Origin: Hyphomicrobiales bacterium
Lineage (GTDB): Bacteria > Pseudomonadota > Alphaproteobacteria > Rhizobiales > Aestuariivirgaceae
Assembly: GCA_026990765.1 (NCBI GenBank)
Contig: JALXCV010000055.1
Coordinates: 1-64,000 of the forward strand
Direction of reading: 5' to 3'
DNA length: 64,000 bases
Positions 3,303-25,964 of the stretch are shown here, piece after piece. Each line of letters begins with the position of its first letter. The stretch's first letter is position 1. The notes beneath the pieces are model-generated. The model saw only the letters and a program-made list of their open reading frames with translations. It searched no databases and was not told the DNA's origin. Both the position numbers and the translations under genes were made by a program.

Positions 3303-6047
3303 ATGCTTGGGCTGAACAAACTCGCCGCCAAAATCTTTGGCACATCAAATGAACGCGTTGTCAAAACCTATCAGAAAAAGGTTGATGCCATAAATGCTCT
3401 TGAACCGGAGATGGAGCAGCTTTCAGATGAAGAACTCAAAGCCAGAACCAAAATGTTCCGTACCCAGCTTGAAGAAGGTGAAAAACTCGACAATCTGATA
3501 ATCCCGGCTTTTGCCACAGTGCGCGAAGCGGTAAAGCGCACTTTGGGCCTCAGATTGTTTGATGTGCAGTTGATTGGCGGCATGGTTCTGCACAAGGGTC
3601 AAATCGCTGAAATGAAAACCGGCGAAGGTAAAACCCTGGTTGCGGTTCTCTCTGGCTATCTCAATGCCCTGACCGGCAAGGGTGTGCATGTGGTTACCGT
3701 CAATGACTATCTGGCCTCGCGCGATGCTGAATGGATGGGGCGCATCTATTCATTTCTTGGCATGACTACCGGCTGCATCATCAATGATATGGGTGATGAA
3801 GAGCGCCGGGCTGCCTATGCCTGTGATGTCACCTATGGCACAAATAATGAATTCGGCTTTGATTATCTTCGCGACAATATGAAATATCACCTGGAAGAAA
3901 TGGTGCAGCGCGGGCATAATTTTGCAACGGTTGATGAAGTTGACTCAATTCTGGTTGATGAAGCCAGAACCCCCTTGATCATCTCAGGTGCCATCGAAGA
4001 CAAATCGGAAATGTACAACAAGGTTGATGCCCTGGTATCAGAATTGTCAGATTCCGATTTTGAAATTGATGAAAAACAACGCCAGGTCACCTTCACTGAA
4101 GAAGGCAATGAAAATATTGAGAATATCCTCAAACAGGCCGGTCTGCTGGAAAGTGAATCACTTTATGATGCAGAAAACGTAACCGCTGTTCATCATATCA
4201 ATCAGGCCCTTCGCGCCCACAAGCTTTTCCAGCGCGACAAGGATTATATTGTTAAAAACAATGAAGTAATCATCATCGATGAGTTTACTGGTCGCATGAT
4301 GCCGGGCAGACGTTATTCAGACGGGCTGCATCAGGCGCTGGAAGCCAAGGAAAAGGTTGAAATCCAGCCGGAAAACCAGACCCTTGCCTCGGTCACCTTC
4401 CAGAACTATTTCCGCCTGTATGACAAGCTCTCGGGCATGACCGGTACGGCAATGACTGAAGCTGAAGAGTTTATGGATATTTATTCACTCGAAGTTATCG
4501 ACATTCCAACCAACATGCCGGTTGCCAGGATTGATTCTGATGATGAGGTTTATCGAACCGCCCAGGAAAAATACAACGCCATAATCGAACAAATTATTGA
4601 ATGCCAGAAAAACGGCCAGCCGGTTCTGGTTGGCACTACTTCGATTGAAAAGTCTGAAGAACTGTCAGACATGCTGAAAAAGCGTAAGATCAAACATAAT
4701 GTTCTAAATGCACGCTATCACGAACAGGAAGCCCAGATCATTGCCCAGGCAGGTTTCCCCGGCACCATTACCATTGCCACCAACATGGCTGGTCGCGGCA
4801 CCGATATTCAGCTTGGCGGCAATCTGGAAATGCGGATCAAGAATGAACTGTCAGATATTGAAGATGAAGCTGAACGCAACCAGGCCATTGAAAAAATCCA
4901 GGCCGAGATTGCTGAAGGCAAAAAACAGGCAATTGCCGCAGGCGGGCTGTTTGTAATCGGCACAGAGCGTCATGAAAGCCGCCGCATTGACAACCAGTTG
5001 CGCGGGCGCTCGGGTCGCCAGGGCGATCCGGGTCATTCAAAATTCTATCTGTCATTGCAAGATGACCTGATGCGGATTTTCGGTTCCGAACGCATGGACT
5101 CAATGCTGAAAAAGCTTGGCCTTGATGAAGGTGAAGCCATTGTCCATCCATGGATCAACAAGGCACTGGAAAAAGCCCAGCAAAAGGTTGAGGCCAGAAA
5201 CTTTGATGCCCGCAAGCACATCCTGAAATATGATGATGTGATGAATGATCAGCGCAAGGTGATCTTTGAACAGCGCATCGATATCATGCGTGGTGAAGAA
5301 GTAGCCGAGACCGTTGATGATATGCGCCATGATATTATTGAAGATCTGGTTGCACTGCATATTCCTGAAAAAGCCTATGCCGAACAATGGGATGTTACCG
5401 GTCTGCGCGAAGATCTGCGCGAAAAGATCGCCATTGATTTCCCGATTGAGGAATGGGCTGCGGAAGAAGGCATAGCCGATGAAGAAATCCGTGAGCGTGT
5501 TGAAGAAGCAGCCGATCGGCTCTATGCCGAAAAGCGTGAAAAATATGGCGATGAAGTCATGGGGCTGGTTGAAAAGGAAGTTCTGCTGCGTACTCTTGAT
5601 GAATTGTGGCGCGAACATCTGGTAACACTGGAACATTTGCGCCAGGCCGTACAATTGCGCGGTTATGGCCAGCGCGACCCGCTCAATGAATACAAGACTG
5701 AAGGTTTCACCCTGTTCCAGTCAATGCTGGAAAAATTGCGCGGCAATACTATCAGCCAGTTGATGCGAGTTGAACTACAAGAAGATGCCATGGCCGAAGC
5801 TGGTCTGCCATTTGAGGGCGAATTGCCCGAAATGCACGCCTCTCACATCGATCCTTTGACTGGACTGGATGAGTTTTCAGGCGGTGATATGGAATCAGGC
5901 GGATTTACCTTTGAGCACCAGACTTTTGTTCACCCCGAAGAACGCGATCCCAATGACCCACAAAGCTGGGGCAAGGTAGGCCGCAATGAAAAATGTCCAT
6001 GTGGCTCCGGCAAAAAGTTCAAACACTGCCACGGCAAGCTGACCTGA
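3303..6047 (+). CDS. secA: preprotein translocase ATPase subunit SecA
   Basis: 914 aa; [11 protein letters not shown], Walker [22 protein letters not shown]-terminal zinc motif [14 protein letters not shown]. Confidence 0.98.
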
Positions 6048-6081
6048 CAGCCTGATCTGCAAGTAACTGATTAAAAAAGCC

Positions 6082-6225
6082 ATGGTATCTACGATAACCC
6101 AAAATCCTGATGTCATTTATATCCTTTCAGCAAAATATGGTCTGCTGGAGCTTGATGAAGTAATTGAGCCGTATGATATGACTTTGAACTTTTTGCCGAA
6201 AGCAAATCACCAGCAATCAGATTGA
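6082..6225 (+). pseudogene. truncated DUF6884/YaaA-like fragment
   Basis: 47-codon ORF MVSTITQNPDVIYILSAKYGLLELDEVIEPYDMTLNFLPKANHQQSD; the YILSAKYGLLxxDEVIEPYDxTL block is characteristic of DUF6884-type proteins (from memory), with no N- or C-terminal remainder. Confidence 0.55.
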
Positions 6226-6262
6226 CAAGCTTTGTGTAGTTGAGATAGGTTTGCAACTGGAT

Positions 6263-6460
6263 GGTTCGGTATTGCTCTGGGTGGTGCCGGATAATAGGGA
6301 ATCTGGTGCGGTAAGTTATGACCAATGCCAGGGCTGCCCCCGCAACTGTAAGCAATGAGTTGTTTGTCCTTAATAAAAAGTCACTGACAGCAAAACAGTG
6401 TTTTGCTCTTGGGAAGGCTGGACAGATGATGTTGAAATGCGAGCCAGGAGACCTGCCATC
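6263..6460 (+). ncRNA. cobalamin (B12) riboswitch
   Basis: Conserved core in order: GGTGCCGGATAATAGGGAATCTGGTGCGG, CCAGGGCTGCCCCCGCAACTGTAAGC, GTCACTG, CTTGGGAAGGCTGGACAGATGATG, then B12 box GCGAGCCAGGAGACCTGCC (about 6439-6457). Confidence 0.95.
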
Positions 6461-6582
6461 CTTGTCGCCGGCGCGATTTACCGGAACGGGGTGTTTCTGG
6501 GTGATCAGGGAATGTTTTCCTGTTTGCTGCTTCCCAATCCTTTTCGCAAGGGCATGGAACTTTGTTTTGGAAAAGGAACACC

Positions 6583-7758
6583 ATGACCATGGTAAAGAAA
6601 ATTATCAAAAAGACTGTTACAGCCGCCCTGCTTGGCGGGTTTATGGCTTCGAGTGCGATGGCGCTTGAGGCCCCGTTCAATCATTATGTATTTGTTCCCA
6701 ACCGCAATTCGGCAGATGTGGCCATTATTGATTCTGACAGTGACAGGCTGGTTGCCAGTGTTAAGGTTGGCAATGTTCCCCATCAGGTGTCGGTATCAGA
6801 CACGCTGGGCAAGATGATAACGTCCAATACCAGCGATAATACGGTTACCATTACCGACCTTGAAACCCTTAAAACCCTGGCTACGATAAGGCTGGGCAAT
6901 GAGCCGGAACATATGGAGATTGGACCGGCAGGCAATATTGCAGCAATCGGCAATATTGGAGAAGGTACTGTATCGCTGATTTCCATGGTAGAAAACAGGG
7001 AAGTCAGGCGCATTTCCGGCCTGTATGAACCACATAACATGACCTTCAGCCCGGATGGAAAATTGCTTTATGTGGGAAATCTTGGGGCTAGTTTCGTATC
7101 AGTTATTGATGTGGAAAAGGGCAAGGTAATCAACGAGATCGCAGTAGGTGAAAATCAGCCTATGGCCGCGTTGCCGGGCAGTGATGATGAACATCAAGGT
7201 ATTATCAATGTCACCCGCACGCCCGATGGGCGGCTTGGCTTTGCAGCTTTTGGCGATGGGGATGTAATGGCGGTTATCGACCTTCGGACCCAGAAAAAGC
7301 TTGCAACCTTAAAGCTGGGGGATGATCCATGGCGTGCCTATACGACAGCTGATGGCCGGTTTATGATTATCCCGAATAATGGCGATGAGACAGTTTCAGT
7401 ATTTTCAACTGTTGCACCTTTTAAGGAAGTTGCACGCCTTAAAGGTGCGGCTGACATGACCGGGGTTAATACCGGGTGGTTTGAAACCACAGCTTTTATT
7501 ATCAGCCGCGGTGATGACAAGGTGGTAATTCTTGATCTGGTGAATATGAAAAATATCGGTGAAATTGATCTGCCGGGCGGATCACCGGAAACAGCTGTTA
7601 CCTCACCTGATGGAACCAAGCTTTATGTGGCACTGTCAGGCACAAATGAAGTTGCGGTGATTGATACCCGCAAGCGCAAATTGCTGCGCAAGGTTAAAAA
7701 TGTCGGGACTGAGCCATGGGGTGCGCATATGGTTGGCTCGCTCAACTATTGTCACTAA
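6583..7758 (+). CDS. exported YVTN/YncE-type beta-propeller protein under B12 riboswitch control
   Basis: Signal peptide MTMVKKIIKKTVTAALLGGFMASSAMA; repeated YVTN-like blades (VFVPNRNSADVAIID, LLYVGNLGASFVSVIDV, KLYVALSGTNEVAVIDTRKRKL). Start moved from 6562 to the ATG at 6583 on RBS AAAAGGA. Confidence 0.9.
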   Translation: MTMVKKIIKKTVTAALLGGFMASSAMALEAPFNHYVFVPNRNSADVAIIDSDSDRLVASVKVGNVPHQVSVSDTLGKMITSNTSDNTVTITDLETLKTLATIRLGNEPEHMEIGPAGNIAAIGNIGEGTVSLISMVENREVRRISGLYEPHNMTFSPDGKLLYVGNLGASFVSVIDVEKGKVINEIAVGENQPMAALPGSDDEHQGIINVTRTPDGRLGFAAFGDGDVMAVIDLRTQKKLATLKLGDDPWRAYTTADGRFMIIPNNGDETVSVFSTVAPFKEVARLKGAADMTGVNTGWFETTAFIISRGDDKVVILDLVNMKNIGEIDLPGGSPETAVTSPDGTKLYVALSGTNEVAVIDTRKRKLLRKVKNVGTEPWGAHMVGSLNYCH

Positions 7759-7773
7759 TGCCACAGATGCCAG

Positions 7774-8622
7774 ATGAATAACCGGAATTTCAGCAGTTGC
7801 GGGCGAGTTGTGAGATTATATCGCAGATATTTACCGCAGCTGGTGATAATATTGGGGCTGTCAGTGCCACAACCGGCGCTGGCAGCCAGCGGCATTGAAC
7901 GGATGTTGGCAAGTGTGGCCATGTTTGCTGATGCAGCTAAAATGCCGTCACTTGAAACCATTAAAGCCAGGTGCCGGGATGATGTTTTATGTGCCGGGAA
8001 AATGCTGGCTGAAAGGTTCGGCCCCAAAGCCCGGCTGGAGCGGGTGGTTCATCCAGATACGGACCGGATAAGGCGGGTTAAATCAGCATTATCGGTGACA
8101 GGGGCTGAACTATTGGCATCTGGTGCGATGCGGCTGGAGCTTTCGCATTTTGGACGCAAAGCGGTCAGCGAAATCATGGCGGTTATTAAAAGGGAAGGCC
8201 GGCAGACGGGCGGGAACATACAATATCTGCAAATTGATTTACGGCATAATAGGGGTGGCAATCTGAACCGCATGTTGCGGGTAGCAGCAATGTTTCTGGG
8301 CAAGGTGCCAGATGCGGTAAGGCTGCAATCACCAAAGGCCATCCAGATGCTGTCAGTTCCTGATTACGCAAGGCCGTTAAAGTTCAGCCAGATAAAGATA
8401 CTGATCGGTCCTGATACTGCCAGTGCTGCTGAGATTTTTACCGCGTTGCTGCGGGTACATACCGGTGCAATAATTGCCGGAAGCAAAAGCTATGGCAAGG
8501 ATTACCTGTTACGCACCATTGCATTAAACCAGAACTGGCAATTACTGGTGCCAGCAGAAAAACTATTCGTTCCCGGCACCAGTCTTGAAGGCGGGATTGT
8601 GCCGGATGTTGTCTTTCCCTGA
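7774..8622 (+). CDS. exported minimal S41-family (C-terminal processing) peptidase
   Basis: Hydrophobic export signal; LDLRHNRGGNLN, DTASAAEIFTALL (Ser) and GSKSYGKDYLL (Lys) match S41 active-site motifs; 16 bp after the propeller gene. Confidence 0.75.
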   Translation: MNNRNFSSCGRVVRLYRRYLPQLVIILGLSVPQPALAASGIERMLASVAMFADAAKMPSLETIKARCRDDVLCAGKMLAERFGPKARLERVVHPDTDRIRRVKSALSVTGAELLASGAMRLELSHFGRKAVSEIMAVIKREGRQTGGNIQYLQIDLRHNRGGNLNRMLRVAAMFLGKVPDAVRLQSPKAIQMLSVPDYARPLKFSQIKILIGPDTASAAEIFTALLRVHTGAIIAGSKSYGKDYLLRTIALNQNWQLLVPAEKLFVPGTSLEGGIVPDVVFP

Positions 8623-23972: not shown

Positions 23973-25964
23973 ATGGAAAAATCCAATGCCACACCGGCTA
24001 GAAAGGATCGTCCCTGGATATTCAGGACCTATGCCGGTCACTCGACTGCTGCTGCTTCCAATGCACTATATAAAAGCAATCTGAAAAAGGGCCAGACCGG
24101 CCTGTCAGTGGCATTCGATCTGCCGACCCAGACCGGCTATGACAGTGACCATATTCTGGCGCGCGGCGAGGTTGGCAAGGTTGGTGTACCGGTCAGCCAT
24201 ATTGGTGATATGCGCCAGCTGTTTGACGGTATTCCGCTTGATAAAATGAATACCTCGATGACGATTAATGCCACAGCGGCATGGTTGCTGGCCCTGTATG
24301 TGGCGGTGGGCGATGAACAGGGGGCGGATCGGCGTTCGCTGTCCGGTACTACGCAAAATGATATTATCAAGGAATATCTGTCACGCGGCACCTATGTGTT
24401 TCCACCTGATCATTCATTGCGGCTGACCAATGATACAATAAGCTGGGGGTATAGGGAGATTCCGCGCTGGAATCCGATGAATGTATGCTCGTATCATTTG
24501 CAGGAAGCAGGGGCAACGCCGGTTGAGGAACTGTCATTTGCGCTGGCTAATGCAATTGCGGTACTGGATGCGGTGAAGGCTTCGGGTGCGGTTGAAACAG
24601 CTGATTTTCCCAAAGTGGTCGGGCGTATCTCGTTTTTTGTCAATGCCGGGATTCGCTTTGTTACCGAATTGTGCAAGATGCGGGCATTTACCGAGCTTTG
24701 GGACGAAATATGCCTTGAGCGCTATGGGGTTGAAGACCCGAAACTGCGGCGGTTTCGCTATGGGGTGCAGGTGAATTCGCTGGGGCTGACTGAACAGCAG
24801 CCGGAAAATAATGTCTACCGGATATTGCTGGAAATGCTGGCAGTGGTTCTGTCGAAGAATGCGCGGGCAAGGGCAGTGCAACTTCCGGCATGGAACGAGG
24901 CGCTGGGACTGCCGCGGCCATGGGACCAGCAATGGTCCTTGCGGATGCAGCAGATTGTGGCGCTGGAAACCGATTTGCTGGAATATGGTGATATTTTTGC
25001 CGGGTCCAGTGAAATTGAGCGCAAAGTTGAAGAGCTGAAAGAAATGGCGCGCAGTGAACTGGCAAATCTGGAGGCAATGGGGGGAATCGTTGCTGGAATT
25101 GACAGCGGCTATATGAAAGAAAAGCTGGTTGCATCCAACACTGCCCGGATCAAGGCGATTGAATCGGGCGAGATGAAAATTATCGGGGTGAATGTCTATA
25201 CAGATGGTGAGGCATCGCCGCTTTCCACCGGGGATGGTGAGGCGATATTGACAGTGCCTGATCATGTTGAGTTTGACCAGATTGCGGCTTTGAAGAAGTG
25301 GCGGGCTGAACGCGATGGCAGCCGGGTCGAGGCAGCTATTGCCGGGTTGAAACAGGCCGCTGGTGATGGCTCAAATATTATGGAACCTTCAATTGAATGC
25401 GCCAAAGCCGGGGTGACAACCGGGGAATGGGGGGCTGTGCTGCGTGAAGTATTTGGTGAATATCGCCCGCCTACCGGGGTTGGCAGGGCTGTTGGCAAGG
25501 ATGATGGCAAGGCTGATGAATTGCGGGTTCAGGTTTCAGAACTGGCGGTAAAACTTGGCACGCCGCCGCGTATGCTGGTTGGCAAACCGGGACTTGACGG
25601 GCATTCCAACGGGGCCGAACAGATAGCAGTGCGTGCCGGTGAAGTCGGGTTTGAAGTGTTTTATGATGGTATCAGGCTGACCCCGGATGAGATTGTGGCC
25701 TCAGCCAGTGAAAACCGGGTGCATGTGATCGGGTTGTCAATATTATCGGGCAGTCATGTCTCGCTGGTGCGCGATGTAATCAACAAATTGCGCGAGAAAC
25801 ATCTGGATCATATTCCGGTTATTGTTGGGGGTATTGTGCCTGAAGGGGATGTGATGGTGCTGCGGCAAATGGGAGTGAAGAAGGTTTATACACCCAAGGA
25901 CTTCCGGTTAAATGCGATGATGACGGAAATTGTCGAACTGGTCGGAGCGCAACAGGGGGCATGA
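23973..25964 (+). CDS. ecm: ethylmalonyl-CoA mutase (MeaA-type, B12-dependent)
   Basis: Mutase domain RTYAGHSTAAASNALYKSNLKKGQTGLSVAFDLPTQTGYDSD and C-terminal B12 domain KPGLDGHSNGAEQIAVRAGEVGFEVFYDGIRLTP. Confidence 0.95.
   Translation: MEKSNATPARKDRPWIFRTYAGHSTAAASNALYKSNLKKGQTGLSVAFDLPTQTGYDSDHILARGEVGKVGVPVSHIGDMRQLFDGIPLDKMNTSMTINATAAWLLALYVAVGDEQGADRRSLSGTTQNDIIKEYLSRGTYVFPPDHSLRLTNDTISWGYREIPRWNPMNVCSYHLQEAGATPVEELSFALANAIAVLDAVKASGAVETADFPKVVGRISFFVNAGIRFVTELCKMRAFTELWDEICLERYGVEDPKLRRFRYGVQVNSLGLTEQQPENNVYRILLEMLAVVLSKNARARAVQLPAWNEALGLPRPWDQQWSLRMQQIVALETDLLEYGDIFAGSSEIERKVEELKEMARSELANLEAMGGIVAGIDSGYMKEKLVASNTARIKAIESGEMKIIGVNVYTDGEASPLSTGDGEAILTVPDHVEFDQIAALKKWRAERDGSRVEAAIAGLKQAAGDGSNIMEPSIECAKAGVTTGEWGAVLREVFGEYRPPTGVGRAVGKDDGKADELRVQVSELAVKLGTPPRMLVGKPGLDGHSNGAEQIAVRAGEVGFEVFYDGIRLTPDEIVASASENRVHVIGLSILSGSHVSLVRDVINKLREKHLDHIPVIVGGIVPEGDVMVLRQMGVKKVYTPKDFRLNAMMTEIVELVGAQQGA

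Follow-up and report, generated by a model that had tools for sequence, protein, structure and literature searches.

In the stretch of Hyphomicrobiales DNA analysed here (64,000 nucleotides, referred to as the window), a cobalamin riboswitch precedes two adjacent genes, which encode an exported eight-bladed YVTN propeller and a protease of the S41 family. We give an even chance to the reading that this propeller-S41 unit is a B12-repressed periplasmic cobalt-supply module; its contribution is most likely to the acquisition of cobalt for B12 synthesis, and not to the capture of B12 as in the case of BtuG. Periplasmic capture of scarce cobalt in Gram-negative bacteria is poorly known, and a review lists no outer-membrane receptor as confirmed to be specific for cobalt (PMC7689651). 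The conserved, B12-switched two-gene unit is a concrete and testable candidate for cobalt capture, and its protease partner suggests a mechanism that is undescribed for cobalt uptake in the literature searched.

The first-pass annotation had recognized a cobalamin riboswitch core and a B12 box ahead of the propeller gene and had named a search with Rfam RF00174 as the appropriate check. Both the assignment and the check hold: the aptamer (6246-6474, plus strand) is matched over its full length by cmscan with an E-value of 2.2e-24, and its core and B12 box score 102 bits, compared to the Infernal gathering score of 31.5 bits. The B12 box, GCCAGGAGACCTGCC (6443-6457, plus strand), was read in the sequence and in the RF00174 alignment. 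It is directly followed by an L13-type kissing-loop hairpin (6481-6500, plus strand), CCGGAA-CGGGGTGT-TTCTGG, the loop of which is CGGGGTGT. Pairing of the loops L5 and L13 is the kissing-loop element of the cobalamin riboswitch class; the GGGG of the window hairpin is complementary to the CCCC of L5, and we infer that the two loops pair here, too. This L13-type hairpin occupies the same position 3' of the B12 box in seven of the ten other propeller-operon riboswitches and in the riboswitch of this genome's own CbiM gene. The aptamer ends 108 nt before the propeller start codon (ATG 6583), which is preceded by AAGGA. Within this spacer, a possible hairpin sequestering the ribosome-binding site (RBS) was seen in the predicted fold (6538-6577, plus strand; TCCTTTTC would pair with GAAAAGGA); it was dropped because the stability of the region is no better than that of shuffled sequences (z -0.95). 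For intrinsic terminators and promoters, the surroundings of the operon gave no more than consensus matches, and the promoters were not above chance. At high B12, the riboswitch presumably represses the propeller-S41 mRNA. Between secA and the riboswitch lies a 47-codon remnant (6082-6225) with a partial-profile match to DUF6884 (PF21818, 43.6 bits), which looks like a truncated gene.

The propeller (6583-7758, plus strand; 391 residues ending in LNYCH) was delineated from its open reading frame, family profiles, an AlphaFold2 model and its orthologues. Its prediction as a secreted YVTN-like protein is borne out by an N terminus that is Sec-type by inspection (..AMALEAP) and by YVTN repeats scoring 131 bits with TIGR02276 (cut-off 27.85). 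The blade count of roughly seven has to be revised: in the AlphaFold2 model, computed from 13 sequences (pLDDT 86.6, pTM 0.85), seven full four-stranded blades are joined by an eighth, which is composed of the first three strands at the N terminus and the C terminus. The protein carries no lipobox, its sole cysteine being residue 390. In the Thermopetrobacter orthologue, the N terminus is twin-arginine-like (MSKINRRRFL), which, from what is established about Tat export, suggests that this orthologue is folded before it leaves the cytoplasm. Closest in sequence are the archaeal surface-layer YVTN propeller 1L0Q and hydrazine synthase beta (142 and 80 bits, respectively, in a PDB profile search), and lactonase-type NosZ is close as well; however, the window propeller stays well below the curated cut-offs for named enzymes, none of which was passed (TIGR03866, 135 bits versus a cut-off of 287; hydrazine synthase beta, 99 versus 560; L-NosZ, 66 versus 700; YncE, 45 versus 400).

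Across the propellers that are linked to a riboswitch or an S41 gene, His67, Glu109, His110 and His151 are invariant, and they are predicted to lie at the starts of the first strands of three consecutive blades. Trp250 and Trp379 are invariant, too, and are placed, together with Arg251, near the predicted top face; likewise invariant is the Asn-Tyr-Cys-His tail. A distant homologue, L084 (6449-7642), is an unlinked paralogue without riboswitch or S41 protease that possibly represents a separate subfamily: it retains the NYCH tail, Trp250, Arg251, Glu336 and Trp379, but has Leu, Ser, Phe and Gly at the positions of His67, Glu109, His110 and His151. Such a pattern would be expected of a ligand site peculiar to the linked family, and the conserved site may be a metal site.

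The second gene (7774-8622, plus strand), which the first-pass annotation had passed over, starts 15 nt downstream of the propeller gene and encodes an S41 protease of 282 residues (PF03572, 71 bits) with a C-terminal-processing (CTP) fold and no recognized PDZ domain; an alternative start at GTG 7810 yields a clean signal peptide. Its AlphaFold2 model (pLDDT 87.8) retrieved CtpA and Prc structures at the top of a fold search. Ser217 and Lys242, the predicted catalytic serine and lysine, are spaced by 25 residues, as are Ser300 and Lys325 of Helicobacter pylori CtpA. Fold and spacing of the Ser-Lys pair are thus shared with the CtpA, Prc and D1-processing proteases, from which the window protease differs by its length, by the absence of a recognized PDZ domain, by the conserved N-terminal Cys67 and Cys73 and by its invariable location beside a propeller. 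In all 17 loci that were long enough (the window, L034, L039-L044, L046, L048-L050 and L079-L083), an S41 gene adjoins the propeller gene on its downstream side, and the unit is therefore taken to consist of propeller and protease.

The propeller family comprises 19 orthologues, one of them partial. Few genomes carry it: within the order 4 of 298 and within the class, with the distant L084 counted in, 8 of 387. Of the 18 members that could be assessed, 11 stand behind a B12 riboswitch; L044 and L082 were left out because their contigs begin too near. In ten of these loci the riboswitch stands directly ahead of the propeller (the window, L034, L039, L040, L042, L043, L045, L046, L048 and L083), and in L041 it stands ahead of a cbiM-propeller-S41 array; no RF00174 match was found upstream in L047, L049, L050, L079, L080, L081 and the partial L085. 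The trait is scattered over deep branches of the tree, including that of L083, and requires approximately four changes, which fits an old association of riboswitch and propeller with later losses; gains would be compatible as well. Literature searches returned nothing relevant on YVTN propellers linked to cobalt or to cobalamin riboswitches.

The link to cobalt comes from CbiM. In L041, the riboswitch (5183-5394) is followed by cbiM (5596-6276), the propeller gene and the S41 gene, and the propeller-S41 pair of L044 comes immediately after a cut cbiM; since the two propellers are 88.8% identical, these loci count as one lineage. The genome of the window has three B12 riboswitches: one for a cobW cluster, one for a solitary CbiM (L038 8849-9529, genome C147; PF01891, 64 bits) and one for the propeller operon. 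The propeller operon thus shares an operon with CbiM in L041/L044 and a riboswitch regulon with it in this genome. Cobalt transporters have previously been recognized through their B12 riboswitches (PMC7689651). CbiQ was not found in this genome and was detected in only 1 of 14 propeller genomes, so that the usual partner is missing for the CbiM proteins in these genomes. As a control, 20 loci from the order that carry the same divergent CbiM subfamily were retrieved (L086-L105): RF00174 stands directly upstream in 19 of them, and neither a propeller nor an S41 gene was a neighbour in any, indicating that this CbiM is a genuine cobalt gene of the B12 regulon, which the pair joined in one lineage. 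Mere co-occurrence was discarded as evidence for both cobalt-related genes. CbiM is present in 5 of 14 propeller genomes and undetectable in the other 9, against a background of 105 of 298 (35%) in the order, and only shared operon and regulon were counted. Similarly, cobN is found in this genome and in 14 of 14 propeller genomes, and it does not discriminate because 36 of 40 relatives possess it. Judged by CobN, B12 is synthesized in this organism and not merely taken up. The unit thus follows the regulon logic of CbiMNQO and solitary CbiM under B12 riboswitches in B12-making hosts, and in one lineage it is in an operon with CbiM. In the literature covered, no cobalt importer is known to include such a propeller or S41 protease.

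The unit could supply cobalt in the following manner: When adenosylcobalamin is plentiful, the riboswitch would repress the mRNA; upon B12 shortage, propeller and protease would be made and exported. The top face of the propeller (His67, Glu109, His110, His151 and Glu336) and the Asn-Tyr-Cys-His tail may then bind periplasmic Co2+, and the metal may be handed towards an inner-membrane importer, presumably the solitary CbiM with its own B12 riboswitch. The S41 protease would have the propeller as its substrate, in the simplest case at the C-terminal tail, resulting in turnover or release. A full periplasmic delivery cycle of a novel type, switched on at B12 shortage, in which Co2+ is loaded at the top face and the Cys-His tail and set free or passed on when the dedicated protease cuts the tail, is conceivable, and in this specific form we regard it as a long shot.

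The first-pass annotation had proposed two functions for the exported propeller: a proteobacterial analogue of BtuG, or a binder of corrinoid or cobalt. The underlying link between B12 switch and propeller is real and conserved, while an analogue of BtuG that captures corrinoids is unsupported; among these readings, the cobalt binder is better supported because CbiM shares the operon. BtuG is a seven-bladed surface lipoprotein, which acts on the TonB-dependent receptor BtuB and is encoded beside btuB (PMC6143338, PMC10404256). Both are exported propellers of the YVTN/YncE type under a B12 riboswitch, but the window protein has eight blades, no lipobox and a protease as partner, and no TonB-dependent receptor was found in its genome. 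In a profile search, the BtuG chains (8blw, 8okv and 8p97) matched with E-values of ~1e-6 to 4e-4, the same range as E. coli YncE. The proposed structural comparison also turned out against BtuG, which is not among the top 50 structural matches of the propeller model. Membership in the BtuG family was rejected on these grounds. That the propeller nevertheless resembles BtuG in function, trapping periplasmic cobalamin or cobinamide for salvage, is in our estimate quite unlikely: B12 control and the exported propeller fold would suit such a role, and Trp250, Trp379 and Arg251, close to the predicted top face, might touch a corrin, but CobN indicates de novo synthesis and the kinship to BtuG is no closer than that to YncE. 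Moreover, this genome (97% complete) has no PF00593 match, and a TonB-dependent receptor was likewise not found in 7 of 13 other propeller genomes, which are drafts (G005, G021, G044, G045, G047, G048 and G049), so that in these genomes there is no obvious outer-membrane route for B12. The 14 propeller genomes have 17 B12 riboswitches between them, and not one stands ahead of a TonB-dependent receptor gene. The annotation had seen no btuB, cob or cbi gene nearby, and none was recognized among the window's open reading frames, of which some were searched with profiles.

The eight-bladed fold itself raises the possibility that the propeller handles tetrapyrroles, as a relative by fold of NirF, NirN and cytochrome cd1 with a corrin or heme d1 precursor as its substrate. 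Over the full length, the model is indeed matched best by the eight-bladed NirN, the d1 domain of cytochrome cd1 (NirS) and NirF (TM mostly 0.72-0.76), and this genome carries an apparent heme d1 cluster. However, sequence identity to these proteins is only 14-17%, the window propeller has no c-heme and is regulated separately, the genome appears by eye to possess a separate NirF, and eight blades alone are no proof of tetrapyrrole binding. Corrin synthesis, furthermore, is cytoplasmic. We hold this reading to be the least probable of those considered. The cluster in question (L038 15289-20000), assigned by eye, contains genes for a uroporphyrinogen methyltransferase-like protein, a NirF-like propeller, four NirD/L/G/H-like regulators and the start of a radical SAM protein.

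More weight, on balance still that of an unlikely alternative, is given to a periplasmic function in B12 shortage other than cobalt supply, such as a B12-independent substitute or a stress response, or to the handling of another metal, for example copper, with the pair serving metalloprotein maturation. B12 control is not indispensable to the pair, as the seven riboswitch-less family loci demonstrate, and in two of them (L049 and L050) the pair is followed by a gene for a PCu(A)C copper chaperone; in L039, an HMA-domain gene and a multicopper oxidase gene lie upstream. These riboswitch-less and PCu(A)C-linked members would also be compatible with a different metal or role. On the other hand, CbiM is in the same operon in L041 and L044, and the riboswitch recurs over deep branches; cobalt supply remains our preferred reading. 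The chaperone is the third gene after the propeller-S41 pair in both loci (L049 9869-10411, profile-tested, and L050 9873-10382), and in L039 the HMA-domain gene is located just upstream and the multicopper oxidase ~6 kb upstream.

Elsewhere in the window, the annotated B12-dependent ethylmalonyl-CoA mutase fits the gene at 23973-25964, an acyl-CoA mutase with a B12-binding domain. In the segment 22105-25964, this ethylmalonyl-CoA-type mutase adjoins a gene of the zinc-dehydrogenase family, which is probably crotonyl-CoA carboxylase/reductase.
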